NCBI GenBank assembly: GCA_902537425.1
Contig: CACBBD010000001.1
Location: 62,001 to 126,000, forward strand
Source of the DNA: an uncultured SAR86 cluster bacterium
GTDB lineage: Bacteria > Pseudomonadota > Gammaproteobacteria > Magnimaribacterales > Magnimaribacteraceae
Reading direction: 5' to 3'
Length of the DNA: 64,000 nucleotides
Numbering within the stretch: position 1 is the first letter of the stretch; each line of letters begins with the position of its first letter. Under the pieces are notes generated by a model. That model made no database searches. It was not told where the DNA came from and saw only the letters and a list, made by a program, of their open reading frames with translations. Positions 16,887-62,295 of this stretch are shown one piece after another. A program made the position numbers and the translations under genes.

Positions 16887-17326
16887 TCTAGGCTTTGCTG
16901 CAGTAAACCAACTAAATCACTCACTTTTCTTCTATGATGCATAGACCTTAACAGCCCGTAGGCAGTTAATATTTCATTTTTTTTGCCACCACTCTCTAAA
17001 AACTCTACTTCTTTAGTCAACAGTGTCCTTAACTTCTGATTATTTTCATCTAGAAAGCTTATGGTTTCACTGTCAGAATCAGATGACTTAAAAACTTCTA
17101 ACTGATCTGCATTAATTCTTGAATGTGACAATAACCAATCAATGATGTCTTGATTCTCCTTATCTAACAAAGTACCAGCTCCGTCCACTTTCATGGCAGA
17201 GATTAAAATAAGGGCGCCCCATGAACCTAAACGAGATCTCTCATATTCATCCTCAATGAGTGGGCTAAATCTATTAAGTATTTCTTGAGCAGCATTTAAT
17301 AGAGCTATATTGATATCTGGTTTCAT
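16883..17326 (-). CDS. Conserved hypothetical protein, partner of APH-type kinase (DUF6285-like)
   Basis: A 147-residue, mainly helical, soluble protein with no signal peptide or membrane span. Length, helix pattern and position immediately after an APH-family kinase are reminiscent of DUF6285 proteins, which co-occur with such kinases and acyl-CoA dehydrogenases; this match is by memory and weak. Its ATG overlaps the kinase stop codon (ATGA), so it is translationally coupled and likely forms a complex with, or regulates, the kinase. It is the last gene of a five-gene operon. Confidence 0.55.
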   Translation of the reverse strand: MKPDINIALLNAAQEILNRFSPLIEDEYERSRLGSWGALILISAMKVDGAGTLLDKENQDIIDWLLSHSRINADQLEVFKSSDSDSETISFLDENNQKLRTLLTKEVEFLESGGKKNEILTAYGLLRSMHHRRKVSDLVGLLQQSLD

Positions 17327-18327
17327 ATCTTACTTTCCAACGTATTCAAAATTATTTCTAAATGTATGTCACCAGGTATCCAGGCAGAAAATAAATTAAT
17401 AGGATCAATATTCTTTCCAGATTTAAACTCATTTCCAGCTGAAATCCATATAGCCATACCTTTGATTGCCGCAAAAAGTTCCCACCATTCCAGGTCTTTT
17501 TTATCAACTTTGTGAGCACTGGAGTTTTCCCAAACGTCAAGGGCTTCATCTCTTGGTATCAAATATGCTGGACGGTCTCTATCTTGCCAACTCCAAATTG
17601 GAGACAATGCCCAACCTAGGTCTTCTAAAGGATCACCTAAATGAGCCATTTCCCAGTCAAGAATACCGGTTATTTTATTCTTAAAATAAAGGAAATTACC
17701 GCTTCTATAGTCTCCATGAACCATGCAAATATTGTTAGATTCTTTAGGAGGATACTTATATAAATATCTTATTCCGGCATCTAATATTGGCTCTACTCCA
17801 ATTGAATCTTCTTCTATAACTTTTACCCATTTATCCAATTCAGTTTTCCAAAAAGGTTTATCCAGATCTTTAGCAAAAGCTTTAAAGATTTCGTTATCTA
17901 TTCTCTTTTTAGCTATTTCACCGAGAATTGACCAGAATTGAATGCCAATATCCTGTTCGTAAGGAGAGTAGCTATTTGGAGTAAAAGGATTTGCAGCTTC
18001 GCCATTCAACTCTCTCATCAACATGAAAGGAACATTGAATGTGGAATCATCTTCCGACATATCAATCAAGATTGGAACTGGAACATTGGATTTTTGAAAA
18101 GCAGAATAAGCTAAATATTCTATTCTTTGTTCAGTTTCTATAAGAGAGCTTTCTTGAGAAAGTCTTAAAATTAATCGTTCTTCACTGCCCAAACTATCTT
18201 TGAGTCTAATCTTATAAGTTTCTCGACTTGCTCCTCCAAAAATTCTTTCAAAACTCAGTAAAGAAAATTCTTTTTTAGATAGGTTGGAGTAATAAGAGAG
18301 GAAAGATTTAGAGAGTTTTTGAGACAT
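17323..18327 (-). CDS. Phosphotransferase family protein (APH/choline-kinase fold)
   Basis: A 334-residue kinase-fold enzyme that would phosphorylate a small hydroxylated molecule. The catalytic loop HGDYRSGNF and the metal-binding ILDWEMAHLGDPLEDLGW are intact. It is closest in pattern to the kinase half of ACAD10/ACAD11, which phosphorylates 4-hydroxyacyl-CoA, rather than to antibiotic kinases. In the operon it follows a P450 and an AttH-like gene; hydroxylation by the P450 followed by phosphorylation is an attractive but inferred order. The gap to the preceding gene is 4 bases, and it overlaps the following gene by 4. Confidence 0.82.
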   Translation of the reverse strand: MSQKLSKSFLSYYSNLSKKEFSLLSFERIFGGASRETYKIRLKDSLGSEERLILRLSQESSLIETEQRIEYLAYSAFQKSNVPVPILIDMSEDDSTFNVPFMLMRELNGEAANPFTPNSYSPYEQDIGIQFWSILGEIAKKRIDNEIFKAFAKDLDKPFWKTELDKWVKVIEEDSIGVEPILDAGIRYLYKYPPKESNNICMVHGDYRSGNFLYFKNKITGILDWEMAHLGDPLEDLGWALSPIWSWQDRDRPAYLIPRDEALDVWENSSAHKVDKKDLEWWELFAAIKGMAIWISAGNEFKSGKNIDPINLFSAWIPGDIHLEIILNTLESKI

Positions 18328-18331
18328 ATAC

Positions 18332-19420
18332 CTAAGTATCTAAAAGGCTCTCGAATCCACTAGTTAGATGAGGGCCTATAAGAAGTTGTTCTAATGCACC
18401 TATTCCCTTCTTAGATGATTTTCCTTCCAGTAACTCTACATCACAAATAGCTTGAATATGAAGGAATGGTGGATCATGTGGATCTTCGCTTAGATCATAA
18501 AAATCATAAAGTGACTGATTTTCGCCGTGGAACTGACCATGACCCCATTCGGGATGCATATAGCCTAATCCACACATGAAAATATGATATTTGGGAATTA
18601 AAGACCAAGTTAATTCAGTGCCATCATGTTTTAAAGCTGAGAATCGGGCCTGTGAGACTCTCCTTGTTCCATCTTTATATTCAACTTCCTTTTTTAATTC
18701 ATATAGTTTCATATTTTCGTTCTTATTTTGAAGGACAGAATGACAATTTGTTGCATATCCCTGCTCATCATCAACGAAATACAGATGAGAAGATTGATCT
18801 TTAAAATTTACAGGAGCCCATAACCAATAAAATTGGGGTAATTTGATTGGTGGCACAATCTGTGAATCTTGCGCTCCAACAGGTCGAATACCCCAGGATC
18901 TATCCCGAGTACCTACATATTTTTTTTCAGATAAATTAACTTCATTGCTTTTGAACTTTATCAAGCCACTCCAATTACCATGTTGTGTCATGCGGGTTGA
19001 ATCCATATAAATGCGAGGGCCATTTTTGATGGTCATTCTTGGTTCTTCCATAGGTTCAAATCTTCCTACAAAAGTTAAATTTGCTGATATTTCTTTGTCT
19101 TCATCGTCTATAAGTATTTTTAATTTCTCAAGTGGCTCTAATATTTCTATCTTGAAAGAACCAACCTCTGTTTCCATTCTCTCGTGGTTCAAAACATCCG
19201 AATATCTGAAATTATGTTGAATACCATCTAACACCAAAATAAAACTAGCATCTTTTATATTAAGATTTGGATAGACACAAAATGCTGCTCCAAAAAATAT
19301 ACTTCCATCTTCGCTATAACCATTAAAAAAATATCTATCATAGAAGTTTCTTTCAGTGCCTACCTCAGCAACAGGCGCAGGCAACTGATGAATAGGAAAA
19401 TCGTCCCCTTTTGAGATCAT
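18332..19420 (-). CDS. AttH/CrtC-like (DUF7064-type) protein
   Basis: A 362-residue soluble, beta-rich protein with no signal peptide. GTRDRSWGIRPVG in the middle and the late PEWGHGQFHGE recall the lipocalin-like double barrel of the AttH/hydroxyneurosporene-hydratase group, including DUF7064/7065 proteins often found beside P450s and APH kinases. Members are thought to handle hydrophobic molecules; no specific reaction is known. It starts 2 bases after the P450 stop and ends 4 bases before the kinase. Family assignment is moderate. Confidence 0.6.
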   Translation of the reverse strand: MISKGDDFPIHQLPAPVAEVGTERNFYDRYFFNGYSEDGSIFFGAAFCVYPNLNIKDASFILVLDGIQHNFRYSDVLNHERMETEVGSFKIEILEPLEKLKILIDDEDKEISANLTFVGRFEPMEEPRMTIKNGPRIYMDSTRMTQHGNWSGLIKFKSNEVNLSEKKYVGTRDRSWGIRPVGAQDSQIVPPIKLPQFYWLWAPVNFKDQSSHLYFVDDEQGYATNCHSVLQNKNENMKLYELKKEVEYKDGTRRVSQARFSALKHDGTELTWSLIPKYHIFMCGLGYMHPEWGHGQFHGENQSLYDFYDLSEDPHDPPFLHIQAICDVELLEGKSSKKGIGALEQLLIGPHLTSGFESLLDT

Positions 19421-31779: not shown

Positions 31780-32997
31780 CTAAGCTGAGTCCAAGTACTT
31801 TTTGAGTTCCTCTTTAGCAATTGTCCTCATGTGTACCTCATCCGGTCCATCACCTATGCGCAGATATCTAATTGAACTGTAAAGACTAGCTAAAGGAGTA
31901 TCTTGAGAGACTCCAGCTCCTCCATGAATTTGTACAGCTCTTTCTATTACTCTGACTGCCATTGATGGTACTTCAACTTTCGGTTGTGCTATTTCGCTTT
32001 TAGCTTCCTTGTTACCTAAAGTATCCATCATGTAGGCTGCCTTAAGGGTTAACAATCTGCACATCTCAATTTCATTACGACACTTGGCTATAACATCAAA
32101 GTTACCACCTAATTCTGCGATTGCTTTACCAAAGGCTTTACGTGTTGAGGCTCTTTTACAAAGTAGTTCTAGGGCAAGTTCAGCAGCACCAATTATTTTC
32201 ATGCAATGATGAATACGGCCAGGACCGAGACGGCCTTGAGCAATTTCAAAACCTCTTCCCTCACCTAAAATAATATTTTCTTTTGGTATCCTCACATTAT
32301 CAAATTTTAAATGGGCATGACCATTAGGTGCATGGTCTGAACCGTAAACAGTTAACATTCTTTGCAGAGTGATGCCCGGAGTGTCTTTTGGAATAATTAT
32401 CTGAGATTGTCTTTGATGCTTAGGAGCATCAGGATTTGAAACTCCCATGAAAATCATAAATTCACAGTCAGGCCTGCCATACCCAGAAGTCCACCATTTT
32501 TCTCCATTGATCACATAATCATCACCATCTTTAGATATAGTGCTAGCAATGTTCGTTGCATCTGAAGAGGCCACATTTGGCTCAGTCATGGCAAACGCTG
32601 ATCGAATCTGGCCATCTAACAAAGGCTTTAGCCATTTTTCTTTCTGGTAACTACTACCGTACTTATCTAGAACTTCCATATTTCCAGCATCTGGTGCAGA
32701 TGAATTAAAAACTTCAGAAGTCCACCCAACTCCCATCATCTCAGCAAGAGGTGCGAATTCGAGATTAGTTAGTCCATAACCCTCATCACCCGTTAACGAA
32801 AAATTCCACAAACCTTCAGCTTTTGCTTCTGTTTTGAGATCATATAATACTTTCGGAACTTGCCACGGATTACCGGATTCTCTAAAAGAATTCATGGCCT
32901 GAGTATATTCTGCCTCTTTAGGTTTTATCTTTTGATCGATAAAGTTTGAGACTTGCACTATCAGATCTTTAGTTTTTTGTGTGTGTTCGAAATTCAT
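31780..32997 (-). CDS. Acyl-CoA dehydrogenase, ACAD10/ACAD11-like
   Basis: A 405-residue flavoenzyme whose sequence follows the dehydrogenase half of eukaryotic ACAD10/11 closely: [55 protein letters not shown] and [10 protein letters not shown]. In ACAD10/11 this domain is fused to an APH-type kinase and removes phosphate from 4-phosphoacyl-CoA made from 4-hydroxy acids. Here it stands alone, while separate APH- and CHK-type kinases occur elsewhere in the window. It is divergent from the amidase gene across a perfect palindrome. Confidence 0.88.
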
Positions 32998-33024
32998 GGT
33001 TAATTTAAAATTTTAGTATTAAAA

Positions 33025-46669: not shown

Positions 46670-48079
46670 TTAACTTCTTTTTCTACTGCCATGTTTATAA
46701 TAAACAGATCTAGCAATCTTTTTAAACTCATCTCCTTTTCTTATTGACCAAATAGTATCTCTTGCATATTTTGCTGATTGTTTTAAGTCTACGACTGGAG
46801 AAATGTAAGCTGTCTGTAAATCTGCGGAATGTATTTTTTTTGGATCAATATCATTGAGACTTGGGATTATTTGTTTTATCCACTTTGCTTCGGGATCTTG
46901 ATCTAAGCTCTGTTTATTGACTGAATAAATTCTAGGTAGATTTATTCCAGTAACTCCACTTTGCATCTGTACTTGGGGAATGTGTATACCTGGTTCATAG
47001 TCGACAAACAGTTCTCCAAGCAAAGGAGATGTGGATTGCCATGGTTGCCATAAATTATAAGATGCAAATGACATGATCATCGCTCTCATTCTAAAATTGA
47101 TCCAACCCTTTTCTCTGAGATAAAGCATACAAGCATCCATAAAAGGAAATCCTGTTTCACCATTAATCCATCTATCAATAAATTCTTTATTCTCGGATTC
47201 TCTGAGGTTGTCACACATTCTGTGCATGGAATTAAATTCCAACTCGGGTTCTGTTTCTAATTTTTGTATGAAATGACAATGCCAATATAGTCTTTTCCTG
47301 AACGAATAGAGATCTCTCTTAAAATGTGATTGAGGATAATTAGCTTCAAGCCTTTGATATATTTCTCTGATAGATATTGAGCCAAATGCAATATGAGGAG
47401 AAAGTCTTGAGCATGATTCTTCAGCATCATGAGGGCTAGACATTTTCTTTGAATACCCTTCAGATCTGCTCTCAAAGAAAGAATTAAGTAGTGCATTTGC
47501 CTCTTTAGTACCACCTTTCTGGAATCCTTTTTGGATAATACTTTTAGATAGGTCTAAAAAGTCATCAAAATTCATGAGATCTGTAGGCTTACTACTTAGA
47601 TTTGGTTTTGGCTGATCATATCGACATTTTCTCATTTGCCTATTCCAATCAAAAGACCACCTGTCTCTGTTAAATTTGTCGATTTGTATTCCAAAATCTT
47701 CATATATATGCAGTTTTGATGACCCCTTGAATGTATTTTTGAATTTACTAATTTGATTTCTGTAATACGATGTATCAGTTGAGTGATTTAGATGAATTTT
47801 AGACTGTGGATAATTTTTTTCGATGAACGCGGCGAGATCTTGGTAAGAACCTTCAAAAATCTCAATAGATGAATTGAGTTTCTTCAATTTTAATTGAACC
47901 TCTTTAAGGCAATCAATTAAAAATGAAAATTGCCTCGGAGATCTCCCATCAATAGACCAATAGTAACTATCATAAACATAAATAATTTTATAATTTTGGT
48001 TTAACGAACCATAGAAAAGGGCTGAGTTATCCTCTAATCTAAGATTCCTATGTAATATGATGATATCCACTTTGAACAA
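46670..48079 (-). CDS. Cryptochrome/photolyase family protein
   Basis: A 469-residue flavoprotein that repairs UV-damaged DNA or senses blue light. The N-terminal alpha/beta domain begins VDIIILHRNLRLEDN. The FAD domain includes SRLSPHIAFGSISIREIY, the substrate-site ETGFPFMDACMLYL, and NFRMRAMIMSFASYNLWQPW. The Trp electron-transfer chain cannot be confirmed by eye. It starts with TTG (48079) or a GTG nine bases later. A DUF3429 gene follows. It may be a CPD photolyase or a member of the cryptochrome-like marine group; repair activity is likely but unproven. Confidence 0.88.
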   Translation of the reverse strand: MFKVDIIILHRNLRLEDNSALFYGSLNQNYKIIYVYDSYYWSIDGRSPRQFSFLIDCLKEVQLKLKKLNSSIEIFEGSYQDLAAFIEKNYPQSKIHLNHSTDTSYYRNQISKFKNTFKGSSKLHIYEDFGIQIDKFNRDRWSFDWNRQMRKCRYDQPKPNLSSKPTDLMNFDDFLDLSKSIIQKGFQKGGTKEANALLNSFFESRSEGYSKKMSSPHDAEESCSRLSPHIAFGSISIREIYQRLEANYPQSHFKRDLYSFRKRLYWHCHFIQKLETEPELEFNSMHRMCDNLRESENKEFIDRWINGETGFPFMDACMLYLREKGWINFRMRAMIMSFASYNLWQPWQSTSPLLGELFVDYEPGIHIPQVQMQSGVTGINLPRIYSVNKQSLDQDPEAKWIKQIIPSLNDIDPKKIHSADLQTAYISPVVDLKQSAKYARDTIWSIRKGDEFKKIARSVYYKHGSRKRS

Positions 48080-48192: not shown

Positions 48193-49404
48193 ATGATGAA
48201 TACAAAAACAAGGGACTTTCCACTTTACCCAAAAGAGGTGACTAATGATTTCTTATCAAAGTGTTTTGGTGAATCTGTAATATCTTTTGAACTGGACACA
48301 AGTATGACAGCTGGAGGTGTTTTAGCTGATGCTTTTAGAGTCTTTAATATTAGATATGATAAGGTTAATGATCTCCCTACAAGCTGCTTTGTCAAATGTA
48401 CAAAAGAAATACCAGAAGTTGTCGAACTCTGCCTCGCAACCCAAGTATATGCAAAAGAAGTATATTTCTATTCAACTCTAATCGAAAAAGTAAGAGATGT
48501 AATTAGAGTCCCAGAGTGTTATGGAATCTTCAAAGATGAAGATGATGAAGAATGTAAAGAGTTCTGTTTAGTTCTAGAGGATTTTGATCAAGATAACTGG
48601 ATGCCTTTTGATCAGTTTGATAACCCTATGGATTTTGAAGATACCGCTATGCTAATGAGAGATCTTGGATCATTCCATGCAGCTTGTTGGAATGAACCAG
48701 TTTCTGATCAGCCTGGTTTAGGTCACTATAGGGCCCACTGGCAATCACTTAATGATAGTTTTTGGGATGAAGAAGGTACAGCATGGGATGAAGTTATTCC
48801 TAAGTGGGAGGAAGTGTATGGAGAAGATTTATTATCTTTAGTGGATTCTGAAGTTAAAGAGACAATTCTCAAGATTAATGCAATCTATACCTCAGATAAT
48901 GGAAAAAAAATTCAAGAAAATCTAATTAAAGAATTACAGAAAAGACCAAGGACTATTACCCACGGAGATGCAAGAGGAAATAATATCTTTAAATCTAGCG
49001 ATGGCAGGACTATAGGGATAATTGATTGGCAAATGTGGGCAGCTGGTCCGGCGAGTAATGAATTTAGCCAGTTGTGGTTTAATTCGTACTCCCTAGAAAG
49101 TGGTATGATTCATAAGTTAAATGAACTTACTCAAATCTACTATGACTCTTTAACCGGGAGTAATTCCGAAATAAAAAATTCTTATCCTTTTGAGCAGCTT
49201 CTAGATGATACGAAACTCATATTTATTAATATGTGGATTCAATATATTGGTTTTACCTTAGGTTCTATTGAAGGATACAAAGATCCAGAACTTAAAAAAT
49301 CTAAAGATAATTGGCGTGAGATGATGAAAAGAAATATGGAGACAGTGCATTATTCTGGATGTTTAGAGTCTTTTGAGAAGTTTATCGCTCAATCAAAGTT
49401 ATAG
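48193..49404 (+). CDS. CHK/EcKinase-like phosphotransferase, copy 1
   Basis: A 403-residue kinase-fold protein of the CHK (ecdysteroid-kinase-like, DUF1679) branch. The catalytic loop THGDARGNNIF (about 257-267) and metal-binding IIDWQMWAAGP are intact. It would phosphorylate a hydroxyl on a small hydrophobic molecule; steroid-like or acyl substrates are known for relatives. The next gene is a clear duplicate with the same motifs and similar length. Cytoplasmic. Substrate unknown. Confidence 0.8.
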   Translation: MMNTKTRDFPLYPKEVTNDFLSKCFGESVISFELDTSMTAGGVLADAFRVFNIRYDKVNDLPTSCFVKCTKEIPEVVELCLATQVYAKEVYFYSTLIEKVRDVIRVPECYGIFKDEDDEECKEFCLVLEDFDQDNWMPFDQFDNPMDFEDTAMLMRDLGSFHAACWNEPVSDQPGLGHYRAHWQSLNDSFWDEEGTAWDEVIPKWEEVYGEDLLSLVDSEVKETILKINAIYTSDNGKKIQENLIKELQKRPRTITHGDARGNNIFKSSDGRTIGIIDWQMWAAGPASNEFSQLWFNSYSLESGMIHKLNELTQIYYDSLTGSNSEIKNSYPFEQLLDDTKLIFINMWIQYIGFTLGSIEGYKDPELKKSKDNWREMMKRNMETVHYSGCLESFEKFIAQSKL

Positions 49405-49432
49405 ATTTTAGTTTAAATCCAAGGAGGGAAAA

Positions 49433-50653
49433 ATGTCAGCAATAGGAAGAAACTTTCCACTATCACCTGAAGAAGTAACAATAGAATTTCTTTCGGCCTG
49501 TTTTGGGAAAGAAGTTACCTCATTCAAACTCGATACCAGTATGATTGATGGCGGCGTATTAGCTGATGCGTTTAAAGTAGAAGAAATTAAATATTTAGAA
49601 AAGCAAGATGAAACTGGTCTTATTTCAAGCTGTTTTATAAAGTGCACCAAAGACATTCCAGAAGTCGTAGATATGAGCCTGTCAACACAGATATATGCTA
49701 AAGAAGTATATTTTTACTCAAAGTTAATCAGTAGGATAAAGAAGGCTATAAGAGTTCCTGAATGCTACGGAATTTTTACTGATAAAGATGATAAAGATTG
49801 CAAAGATTTTTGTATTGTTTTAGAGGATTTGTCAGGTGAGGATTGGGAAGCATATGAACAATTTGAGAATCCTATGGGCCTTGAAGATCTAAAAACATAT
49901 ATGTTGGATCTTGCTTCATTCCACGCAGCATCTTGGAACGAGCCTATCTCAGATCAGCCAGGTCTTGGTGTTTTCAGACCACATTGGCAAAATCTTAATG
50001 ATGAATATTGGGATAATGGAACTACCACTTGGAATGAAGTGAAAATAAAGTGGAAAGAAATATATGGTGAACCTTTTGAGCTCCTTGCTGGCGATGAAGT
50101 AAAAGTAACCATAGAAAAAATAGCTGAAATATTCACATCTGAAAATGGGAAAAAAATACAAGACGCTATGCTAAAAAGGCTGGAATCAAGACCCAGGACG
50201 ATTACTCATGGTGATGCAAGAGGAAACAATGTGTTCAAATCAAAATCTAAAGGGAACATGGCTTTGATTGATTGGCAAATGTGGGTCGCTGGACCTTGCA
50301 GTAATGAATTTTGTCAAATTTGGTTAAATTCTTGGTCTCTAGAAAGTGGAATGGTATTTAAATTAGAAGAAGTTACAAGAATTTACTATGAAGAGCTTTG
50401 CAGATTGAGGCCTGAAGTAGAGAAAGATTATCCATTTGATGATATGTTTTTTGATATGAAGTTGATCTTTATAAATATGTGGAATCAGTATCAAGGTTTT
50501 GCAGCGGGTGCATTAGATGGATATAAAGATCCAAAACAAAAAAAAGCAAAAGAAAACTTTTATAATTTATTTAAAAGATCAATGGAAACACTGCACTATT
50601 CCAATTGCCTTGAAACATTTGAAGAATTTATTAACTTATTGGAAACAAAATAA
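49433..50653 (+). CDS. CHK/EcKinase-like phosphotransferase, copy 2
   Basis: A 406-residue tandem paralogue of the preceding kinase: both begin with a similar FPLSPEEVT or FPLYPKEVT segment, share FCLVLEDF/FCIVLEDL, SFHAA(C/S)WNEP and DQPGLG, and carry THGDARGNN and LIDWQMWVAGP. The copies differ most in the N-terminal 60 residues and the substrate-facing middle, suggesting related but different substrates. An AAGGAGG ribosome-binding site precedes the ATG. The stop overlaps the start of a histidine phosphatase by one base. Confidence 0.8.
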   Translation: MSAIGRNFPLSPEEVTIEFLSACFGKEVTSFKLDTSMIDGGVLADAFKVEEIKYLEKQDETGLISSCFIKCTKDIPEVVDMSLSTQIYAKEVYFYSKLISRIKKAIRVPECYGIFTDKDDKDCKDFCIVLEDLSGEDWEAYEQFENPMGLEDLKTYMLDLASFHAASWNEPISDQPGLGVFRPHWQNLNDEYWDNGTTTWNEVKIKWKEIYGEPFELLAGDEVKVTIEKIAEIFTSENGKKIQDAMLKRLESRPRTITHGDARGNNVFKSKSKGNMALIDWQMWVAGPCSNEFCQIWLNSWSLESGMVFKLEEVTRIYYEELCRLRPEVEKDYPFDDMFFDMKLIFINMWNQYQGFAAGALDGYKDPKQKKAKENFYNLFKRSMETLHYSNCLETFEEFINLLETK

Positions 50654-51369
50654 TGCAACCAAATATGTCACTAGATGGCCATCATAGAAAACGTATCTAT
50701 CTCTTTAGGCATGGCGAAGTAAATTACATGCCATCTGGTAAGGTCGTCAAAGACCCTAATCAGGTTGATTTAACAGAATTAGGGCTTCTACAAGCAAAAC
50801 TAATAGATGAGAATACTAAGAATATTGATTTTGAGAGGATAATTAGCTCGGGCCTGCCGAGGACTATCCAGACAGGTGCTCATATGGCCAAAAGAAGGAA
50901 CATATCTATAGAAGCTTATCCAGAGCTGAAAGAATACCAATGGGACCCTAAATCTTTTAAAGATAATGACGTAAGAAAATTTGGATATTTATTTGAAAAT
51001 TCCAAATCAAAAGATGCAATTGGGGGAATTGAAGAGGCTGATGAATTCTATAATAGAGTAATTAATCAATTGGAAAAGATTATCAAAGAAGAGTGGAGTC
51101 AAATAGCCATTGTTTTGCATGGTGCAGTTAATGCTGCAATCATGTGTTGGTTAAATGACATCGATATAAGTCTAGCATCAAAATTTGATCAAGATCATGC
51201 CGCTCTGAACATTATTGATGTCGATACAAATGAAGATGGTGAAATCGTAAGGAAATCAATAAGACGATATAACATTCCTCCAGACTTATCTAATATAGAC
51301 TCCGATATTTGGTCTTCTTGGGAATCTACAGCAAGTAAGATAATTAGCTTTAATGAGTCAGCCACTTAA
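50653..51369 (+). CDS. Histidine phosphatase family protein
   Basis: A 238-residue phosphohydrolase of the phosphoglycerate-mutase-like superfamily. The phospho-His site is LFRHGEVNY (His20), and the second His lies in IVLHGAVNAA. It starts in the stop codon of the second CHK-type kinase (TAATG), so kinase and phosphatase are translationally coupled, implying that one removes phosphate added by the other or acts on a later phosphorylated product; this is inference. Its end overlaps the convergent hydrolase by 20 bases. Confidence 0.85.
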   Translation: MQPNMSLDGHHRKRIYLFRHGEVNYMPSGKVVKDPNQVDLTELGLLQAKLIDENTKNIDFERIISSGLPRTIQTGAHMAKRRNISIEAYPELKEYQWDPKSFKDNDVRKFGYLFENSKSKDAIGGIEEADEFYNRVINQLEKIIKEEWSQIAIVLHGAVNAAIMCWLNDIDISLASKFDQDHAALNIIDVDTNEDGEIVRKSIRRYNIPPDLSNIDSDIWSSWESTASKIISFNESAT

Positions 51370-52147
51370 TTATGTCCTGGAAGGCATTGGTATCCTGCAT
51401 TAGAAATAAATGACCCCCTTCATAGAACTCTAACTTACTGTTACGAATTTTTTGATGCATCTTCTCCATGTTTAACATAGGAGCTATACCGTCATATTTA
51501 CCTCCGAGTAAAAAAGTGGGAATATTTATATGATCTAAATCAAAGTAAGTATTATGGTCCTTTCTTGCCAAGAGTTGCTTAAGGAGGTTTCTTGGCTTTG
51601 GTTTAAATGCGTTCCTATTTTTTGCCTGTTCTTTTATAGATCGCCATAAATCCTTATTTTGCTCTATCCATTCATCAGTAATCCTTAAGTCATTTATTTT
51701 GATACTTTTCTCTAATTTCTCCTCTTCATTCAACTCTTCTAATATGTGTAAAGGATATGAAGAGCCACCCTCTCCACCTGAGGAAGTACAAGCCAAGACT
51801 AGTTTACTAACTCTAGATGAATGCCTTTTTATAAATTCTTGAGCAACCATACCGCCAAAAGAAACACCCATAACTGGAATAGTATTTATTTCAAGGACAT
51901 CAAGAAGATGAGCAGCATCATCAGCATATTGTTGCATTGAATAAGCTCCAGATGGGCTAGATGTCTGACCTAAGCCTCTTTGATCATAACTAATAATTTC
52001 AAAATGTTCTGAAAGAGGTGAATGAAGCTGATTGGGCTTATTACGTAAGTCTCCACCTGTTCCTCCTATAAACAATAATGGTCCATTAGGGCGTGGTGCA
52101 CTCCTTTCAAAATACATATCTAACTCTTTTGTGCTTATAATGGCCAT
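51350..52147 (-). CDS. Alpha/beta hydrolase
   Basis: A 265-residue hydrolase. Nucleophile Ser96 in GVSFGGM, the acid in GGKYDGIAP and the His in YEGGHLFLMQD make the triad. No signal peptide. The pattern is like 3-oxoadipate enol-lactonase and related esterases, but no aromatic-degradation genes are nearby, so the substrate is open. It is convergent with the phosphatase, overlapping by 20 bases, and divergent from the small exported protein. Confidence 0.85.
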   Translation of the reverse strand: MAIISTKELDMYFERSAPRPNGPLLFIGGTGGDLRNKPNQLHSPLSEHFEIISYDQRGLGQTSSPSGAYSMQQYADDAAHLLDVLEINTIPVMGVSFGGMVAQEFIKRHSSRVSKLVLACTSSGGEGGSSYPLHILEELNEEEKLEKSIKINDLRITDEWIEQNKDLWRSIKEQAKNRNAFKPKPRNLLKQLLARKDHNTYFDLDHINIPTFLLGGKYDGIAPMLNMEKMHQKIRNSKLEFYEGGHLFLMQDTNAFQDIIKWLTH

Positions 52148-61142: not shown

Positions 61143-62295
61143 AGTTATTCAAAATTTTTTAAATAAAAATATCGGAAAATTAGAAAAAGAAAATCTTTCT
61201 TTAGTTCTTCCAAATGAGAAAAAAATTCAATTAGGAGATAATCTAGACTCTCTAGAAATTCGTTTTAACTCATGGCTTGGTGTATGGCTTATTCTAAGAC
61301 GGGGTGCTTTAGGACTGACTGAAGGATATATGAAAAATTATTGGCAAACAGATAAATTAATGGAATTGATGGATTATCTTCCTAAAAATTTAAATGCGCT
61401 TTCAAAAATCTCAAATGGAATACTTTTTTTTAATATCTTCGCAAGAATTAATCACTTCCTTAATAAAAATACTATCAAAGGAAGTAGGAAAAATATTGAA
61501 GCACACTATGATCTAGGTAATGACTTTTTTAGTCTTTGGCTGGATAACACTATGACTTATTCTTCAGGAATATTTTATCAAGATACAAAAAGCCTTTGTG
61601 AAGCTCAAAATAATAAATATCAATCAATCTTGGATTTACTGGACTTAAAAGAGGGATCGAAAATACTCGAAATTGGATGTGGCTGGGGAGGATTCCTAGA
61701 ATATGCAACCAAAAAGGGTTTTGATGTTAAGGGAATAACAATATCACCAAGCCAACTTGAGTTTGCAAAAACTAGGCTTCAAAAAATTAAAGAAAACCCT
61801 GAGATAGAGCTTATAGATTATAGAAAAGTTTCGGGAAAATATGATGCTATTGTATCGATTGAGATGTTCGAGGCTGTTGGATCGCAATATTGGGATACAT
61901 TTTTCTCCAAAATTAAATCATTATTAAAAAAAGATGGTAAAGCAGCTATCCAAACTATAACTATTGGAGATCATTTATTTGAATACTATAAAAATAATCC
62001 TGATTTTATTCAGACATATATTTTTCCTGGAGGTATGCTTGCCAGTAATCAAATAATTCATAATCTTGCCGAAAAAAATGAACTCAAATCAGAAATCCAA
62101 ATAGATTTTTCCCAATCTTATGCAAAAACATTAGAGACATGGTTCTACAATTTTCAAAAATACTGGCAGCAAATCGAAACTTTAAACTTCGATAAAAAAT
62201 TTAAGAATACTTGGGATATGTATCTTGCTTATTGTAGAGGCGGGTTCTTAAATGAAAGAATCTCTGTTTCACAATATTTATTGGAAAATAAATGA
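61132..62295 (+). CDS. cfa: Cyclopropane-fatty-acyl-phospholipid synthase family methyltransferase
   Basis: SAM-dependent enzyme acting on double bonds in phospholipid acyl chains. AHYDLGNDFFSLWLDNTMTYSSG and the SAM loop LEIGCGWGGF, with a C-terminal AYCRGGF, are CFA hallmarks. I use the ATG at 61132 because GGAAG (61119-61123) is 8 bases before it; the frame is open to 61117. The product may be a cyclopropane or a methylated acyl chain, the latter as in furan fatty acid synthesis. It overlaps DUF1365 and the next gene. Confidence 0.9.
   Translation: MLTKVIQNFLNKNIGKLEKENLSLVLPNEKKIQLGDNLDSLEIRFNSWLGVWLILRRGALGLTEGYMKNYWQTDKLMELMDYLPKNLNALSKISNGILFFNIFARINHFLNKNTIKGSRKNIEAHYDLGNDFFSLWLDNTMTYSSGIFYQDTKSLCEAQNNKYQSILDLLDLKEGSKILEIGCGWGGFLEYATKKGFDVKGITISPSQLEFAKTRLQKIKENPEIELIDYRKVSGKYDAIVSIEMFEAVGSQYWDTFFSKIKSLLKKDGKAAIQTITIGDHLFEYYKNNPDFIQTYIFPGGMLASNQIIHNLAEKNELKSEIQIDFSQSYAKTLETWFYNFQKYWQQIETLNFDKKFKNTWDMYLAYCRGGFLNERISVSQYLLENK

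Follow-up and report, generated by a model that had tools for sequence, protein, structure and literature searches.

A three-gene unit composed of two genes for ecdysteroid-kinase-like (EcKL) small-molecule kinases (K1 and K2) and one gene for a histidine phosphatase (P) was analyzed in a 64,000-nucleotide stretch of DNA (positions 62,001 to 126,000 of contig CACBBD010000001.1, assembly GCA_902537425.1; hereafter the window) from an uncultured SAR86 cluster bacterium. With 33 contigs totalling 1.34 Mb, the source assembly has a completeness of 74%. The three genes lie on the plus strand in the order K1, K2, P (Table 1). Both kinases exceeded the cut-off of PF02958 (22 bits), with a weaker match to the APH family, and P exceeded that of PF00300 (21.7 bits). 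The motifs F[VI]KCTK, HGDARGNN, and IDWQ were kept in K1 and K2, and the RHG motif and the later histidine were retained in P; all of these residues we take to be catalytic. An earlier note on this DNA had described two intact ecdysteroid-kinase-like genes followed by a phosphatase that starts inside the stop codon of the second, and both statements were borne out: the two kinase genes have exact coordinates, scores above the cut-off, and whole motifs, and the final A of the K2 stop codon TAA (50651-50653) is the first base of the ATG of P. Translational coupling of K2 and P is likely. K1 and K2 are separated by a gap of 28 bases, in which an AAGGAGG sequence is found.

Table 1. Genes and sequence features of the kinase-phosphatase unit and its flanks, in window positions
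Feature	Position	Strand	Basis
K1, EcKL-family small-molecule kinase, 403 residues	48193..49404	+	PF02958 57.4 bits, PF01636 39.8 bits; intact motifs
AAGGAGG, Shine-Dalgarno-like, ahead of K2	49418..49424 (+/- a base or two)	+	Read from sequence
K2, second EcKL-family kinase, 406 residues	49433..50653	+	PF02958 58.3 bits; intact motifs
TAATG, K2 stop overlapping P start, coupling likely	50651..50655	+	Read from sequence
P, branch-1 histidine phosphatase, lva-operon subfamily, 238 residues	50653..51369	+	PF00300 108 bits; subfamily profile 132.6 bits
Flanking photolyase/cryptochrome-like gene, divergent, outside the unit	46670..48079	-	PF03441, PF00875
Flanking alpha/beta hydrolase gene, convergent, overlapping the P end by 20 bases, outside the unit	51350..52147	-	PF00561

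The chance of a stop-free run of 400 codons at the local base composition was about 1e-13. Because third-position differences exceeded first- and second-position differences when K2 was compared with each of seven kinases, K2 remains under coding constraint. A promoter scan of the locus gave fewer matches than were found in shuffled sequence.

Its profile score and the sequence marks it shares place P in the histidine-phosphatase subfamily found in lva operons. With a profile made from four annotated lva-operon phosphatases, P scored 132.6 bits and seven SAR86 sequences 125-154 bits; the sequences from a CoA-transferase setting (described below), the Burkholderiales-like sequences, and the sequence of genome G226 scored 178-205 bits, and four ordinary histidine phosphatases 35-66 bits. 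Three marks, namely RHG-x-V-x-Y, H-x-x-[VIT]-N, and a C-terminal N-x-[TSP]-[PA], were all present in 7/7 SAR86 sequences, and none of them was present in the four other histidine phosphatases compared; the second mark was absent from two Thermus sequences. These marks were defined after the alignment had been viewed and are descriptive, not an independent test. In a profile search with P against chains of solved structure, phosphoserine phosphatase 1, CobC, and phosphoglycerate-mutase-like proteins ranked first, and fold searches with a model of P (mean predicted local distance difference test score, pLDDT, 80.9) agreed with this result, a riboflavin-pathway phosphatase also being among the closest structures. 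P missed the NCBIfam cut-offs for CobC (70.1 of 162.9 bits) and PspA (60.7 of 350 bits).

The company kept by this subfamily elsewhere was read from plasmids and genomes. Among plasmids, 17 records matched P (14 Thermus, 2 Azospirillum, and 1 Stutzerimonas), and five of them were opened: four annotated records (A. ramasamyi, S. stutzeri, T. thermophilus HB8, and T. brockianus) and the unannotated record of A. lipoferum, which was read with profiles from the other four plasmid records and from the genome of the window. All five carried the order phosphotransferase (lvaA), DUF6285 protein (lvaB), histidine phosphatase, with an lvaC-type acyl-CoA dehydrogenase (ACAD) gene beside it, and the Stutzerimonas record added the short-chain dehydrogenase/reductase (SDR), acyl-CoA synthetase, and symporter genes of a levulinate-type operon. 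In Pseudomonas citronellolis, a histidine phosphatase gene lies beside an lvaA homologue (PCLA_07f0390-0396), and for its product a role on 4-phosphovaleryl-CoA has been proposed (PMC6692424).

A class-wide search of 273 other genomes with the P profile gave one clear match (G226), in which LvaA- and lvaC-like genes lay within 8 kb of the phosphatase gene, not adjoining it, and three matches of the strength seen for ordinary histidine phosphatases. Phylum-wide, matches were obtained in 7 of 397 other genomes, and all seven were opened. In three of them, which belong to one family (f190), an APH-family kinase gene adjoined the phosphatase gene and an lvaC-type ACAD gene lay within 6 kb, and on the other side of the phosphatase stood genes for enoyl-CoA hydratase and 3-hydroxyacyl-CoA dehydrogenase (the Pfam run covered one genome in full and the kinase or ACAD only in the other two). 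Three further matches (L169, L170, and L171; two families, alphaproteobacteria-like) showed a CoA-transferase family III gene adjoining the phosphatase gene; the Pfam run was made on two of these, the third being a same-genus twin by its first residues. Judged from gene order, the CoA-transferase III neighbour is a predicted second acyl-CoA setting for the phosphatase subfamily. CoA-transferase family III is a family that we take to include alpha-methylacyl-CoA racemase.

The pairing of kinase and phosphatase was surveyed in 35 genomes of the same family, most of them incomplete, with K2 as the kinase query at E values up to 1e-20. The kinase was found in 10 genomes and P in 12 (both in 10, P alone in 2, and neither in 23; Fisher's exact p 3.6e-7, descent being ignored); by genus, both were present in two genera, P alone in one, and neither in four. 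Within the genus of the window, the two genes adjoined in all eight genomes, the window's included, in which both were whole on one contig, and the pair in the seven others had a single kinase gene. The spacers between kinase and phosphatase ranged from -1 to 40 bases, the single kinase gene of G016 being joined to the phosphatase gene by the same one-base overlap. Contig ends cut both genes in G017, and a contig starts inside P in G012. In G023 and G024, from two other genera of the family, a GCV_T-domain gene stands ahead of P and a uracil-DNA glycosylase gene behind it (L054 827-3183 and L055 8761-11068), and in G226 (L115) the gene after the phosphatase resembles, by eye only, a mismatch-type glycosylase.

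Around other gammaproteobacterial EcKL-type genes, an lva-type phosphatase was found in 0 of 39 regions within the stretch fetched, and four of these regions gave weak histidine-phosphatase matches at the generic level. The 39 regions were the better-scoring PF02958 matches among those listed, some of the stretches were short, and all stop-to-stop frames were read. The phosphatase profile used in the initial region scan missed one of the two other PF00300 genes in the genome of the window, and distant histidine phosphatases could have escaped it.

EcKL kinases were detected in 149 of 274 gammaproteobacterial genomes. To our knowledge, no bacterial member of this family has a proven substrate, and a literature search likewise brought up none. 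A model of K2 (mean pLDDT 75.1) showed a kinase fold. In the kinase tree, the LvaA/APH sequences were split from the EcKL sequences with 100/100 support, and K1 and K2 stood on the EcKL side. The LvaA profile matched neither K1 nor K2 up to E = 10, although it matched six of the nine other EcKL kinases in the set. Charge was considered as a hint of CoA binding and was uninformative, since K1, K2, and the genome's LvaA-like and other kinases are all acidic (isoelectric point, 4.6-5.0). Elsewhere in the genome, on contig C5 (about 29.0-31.4 kb; L056 7551-9869), another EcKL kinase gene comes after a gene of the PhyH (phytanoyl-CoA dioxygenase) family, and these two are a possible hydroxylase-then-kinase pair as read from their sequences.

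The two kinase genes were called tandemly duplicated in the earlier note. They are indeed adjacent homologues, but a recent duplication does not fit the comparison: K1 and K2 are 59-60% identical to each other, K1 shares 71-87% identity with the lone kinase at the same place in the genus relatives, and K1 and K2 were sisters in neither of two kinase trees. By these sequence comparisons, they are not recent duplicates. K1 shares 87% identity with the G016 kinase and 74% with the G005 kinase, and for P the order is reversed, at 88% with its counterpart in G005 and 66% with that in G016. With the kinase nearest to G016, and both P and most of the flanking genes nearer G005, K1 looks to have been exchanged with a G016-like lineage. 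K2 sits on a long branch, with 57-62% identity to all family kinases; one tree joined it to G023 (95/97, with a long-branch warning), and another left it unplaced. K2 itself was absent from the other 34 family genomes, in which only one-kinase homologues at 58-62% identity were found, and two kinases at this place occur only in the genome of the window, the relatives all having one. In an otherwise conserved neighbourhood, no gene is less conserved than the kinase.

Taken with the operon company of its subfamily, the coupling of P to EcKL kinases suggests that the unit may be a partner-swapped form of a known kinase and histidine-phosphatase arrangement, its substrate being a hydroxylated metabolite of acyl or acyl-CoA-like type; we favour this reading tentatively and rate its chance as somewhat short of even. 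The known form is that of the lva operons of P. citronellolis, Azospirillum, Stutzerimonas, and Thermus, in which a small-molecule kinase of the protein-kinase-like superfamily is likewise encoded beside a phosphatase of the P subfamily, often by overlapping genes. Their kinase is of the APH/LvaA type and is accompanied by lvaB, lvaC, and SDR genes, whereas the SAR86 unit has an EcKL kinase and none of these. 4-Hydroxyacyl-CoA is the substrate that LvaA and the kinase domains of ACAD10 and ACAD11 phosphorylate, and elimination of the phosphate is the work of the ACAD part (PMC6692424, PMC12440821). K1 and K2 share their superfamily with these kinases but, as noted above, not the LvaA profile.

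In the favoured scheme, K1 and K2 would use ATP to phosphorylate a small molecule at a hydroxyl group, and P, in the presumed direction of flow, would remove that phosphate. The phosphoester would most likely be a phosphorylated hydroxy-acyl or hydroxy-acyl-CoA-like compound, because the subfamily of P accompanies LvaA-type kinases in 4-hydroxyacyl-CoA operons. P may reset or repair the phosphoester, freeing CoA or the hydroxy acid when the next step stalls, or it may drive an on/off cycle; its partner in SAR86 would be an EcKL kinase in place of the APH-family LvaA, and K1 and K2 would differ in substrate range. The reversible phosphorylation of a hydrophobic metabolite put forward in the earlier note thus survives in part: the coupled kinase and phosphatase probably act on the same phosphoester, and a hydroxylated, possibly hydrophobic substrate is plausible. 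The steroid analogy that came with it is not supported, as set out below.

Several observations weigh against the partner-swap reading. P is only 24-30% identical to lva-type phosphatases, and the phosphatase tree (with L182 included, and with L095, which has no 120-residue frame with the motif, L170, which is of the genus of L169, and L172, whose start is unclear, left out) leaves the joining of the groups unsettled. The role of the phosphatase in the lva operons is itself only proposed (PMC6692424). Some subfamily members keep other company: G782, the remaining one of the seven phylum-wide matches, has no adjoining kinase or acyl-CoA gene, and a Burkholderia cenocepacia replicon carries a subfamily phosphatase without the lva neighbours. 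K1 and K2 cannot be taken for LvaA-type kinases, a candidate rejected by both the profile and the tree split, and the K1-K2-P unit (48-52 kb of the window) contains no ACAD, DUF6285, or SDR gene and stands alone between the photolyase and hydrolase genes. As for the pairing, kinase and P lie on different contigs with other neighbours in G023 (same family, other genus), and P has no adjoining kinase or acyl-CoA gene in G024. Adjacency within one genus is weak-to-moderate evidence, because local gene order is conserved in general and the flanking genes are collinear across the genus anyway. Linkage in other genomes, to which the earlier note had tied its proposal, was accordingly upheld within the genus (8/8) and failed outside it, in G023 and in the 39 gammaproteobacterial EcKL regions. 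The kinase-phosphatase coupling is real but narrow, in one genus.

Other explanations of the unit were weighed, and the genome's own lva genes supply the first. On contig C5 (about 70.8-73.4 kb; L180 6799-9356), ACAD, APH kinase, and DUF6285 genes (PF00441, PF01636, and PF19802) form a block beside a ketosynthase-like gene; the place behind the DUF6285 gene, which a phosphatase gene occupies in Azospirillum and Thermus, holds none here. Four of the 19 ACADs of this genome are near the lvaC-type ACAD of L173 (40-61% identity) and have DGPDEVH. Three PF00300 genes are present in the genome, and the one besides P that was checked for the subfamily marks has none. P might serve this lvaC-lvaA-lvaB block, its position behind K1 and K2 being incidental, and the vacant phosphatase place and the PF00300 genes are consistent with such a role. 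Against it, none of the 10 family genomes with the EcKL kinase lacks P, and P is tied to the kinase gene by an overlap or short spacers, which makes this service to C5 unlikely. The literature search brought up no paper linking SAR86 with DUF6285. The window itself also holds an APH kinase gene (17323-18339, minus strand; LvaA profile, 6.6e-37) and an lvaC-type ACAD gene (31780-33012, minus strand; 9.3e-100), which lie 14 kb apart, neither of them beside K1-K2-P.

Detoxification, in which K1 and K2 would inactivate an imported hydroxylated antibiotic or xenobiotic while P recycled it or had another job, appears rather improbable. Corramycin phosphotransferase and other antibiotic phosphotransferases are among the best structural matches of the kinase, and a kinase that is the least conserved gene locally, with K1 apparently exchanged, would fit a changing target; a phosphatase in the same operon that undoes the modification argues against inactivation, however, and no resistance or transport gene adjoins K1-K2-P.

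About equally improbable, in our estimate, is a sterol- or hopanoid-like switch, in which the EcKL kinases would store, and P release, a steroid-type alcohol. The unit resembles the insect ecdysteroid pair in that K1 and K2 belong to the EcKL Pfam family and in that the insect ecdysteroid-phosphate phosphatase belongs to the histidine phosphatase superfamily. The insect phosphatase was brought up by no sequence or fold search made with P: no ecdysteroid-phosphate or Sts phosphatase was so named among the 39 chains up to E = 1 or among the listed fold matches, although no positive control was included and this absence is not an exclusion. The ecdysteroid analogy drawn for the phosphatase is not supported; the ties of P are those described above, to phosphoserine phosphatase and CobC-like chains in the profile search and to lva-type acyl-CoA operons for the subfamily. 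On the kinase side, the bacterial 25-hydroxy steroid kinase of Sterolibacterium denitrificans has the same fold (Z 15.7, root-mean-square deviation 4.2, 303 residues, 11% identity), but its Z is tied with those of choline, N-acetylhexosamine, and antibiotic kinases, and among solved structures it gave no sequence match to the kinase profile up to E = 1. In that bacterium, dehydration proceeds with the phosphate as leaving group, and the phosphate is not a means of storage (PMC8449060). No paper combining SAR86 with ecdysteroid was found in the literature search. With a steroid kinase only among many tied folds and an ecdysteroid-phosphate phosphatase absent from the matches listed, the steroid reading was set aside and the steroid analogy is not supported.

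Least probable of all is an ordinary housekeeping phosphatase (for phosphoserine, alpha-ribazole, or a sugar phosphate) placed behind unrelated kinases by chance, which the closest solved structures of P (phosphoserine phosphatase 1, CobC, and the riboflavin-pathway phosphatase) would suit but from which the widely missed NCBIfam cut-offs and the subfamily marks, missing from the four ordinary histidine phosphatases compared, lead away.

On the partner-swap reading, an EcKL kinase and an lva-type phosphatase stand in one compact operon, so that both can be tested directly: whatever one enzyme produces, the other should accept as substrate. It is also conceivable, though we regard this wider view as doubtful, that this subfamily of phosphatases acts as a general 'eraser' and has joined at least two different kinase branches, the LvaA-type APH kinases in acyl-CoA operons and, in SAR86, the EcKL kinases. 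In that case a hydroxylated lipid or acyl-CoA would pass through a so far undescribed phosphorylation cycle in SAR86, in which the kinase may have been swapped between lineages to change the substrate while the phosphatase was kept.

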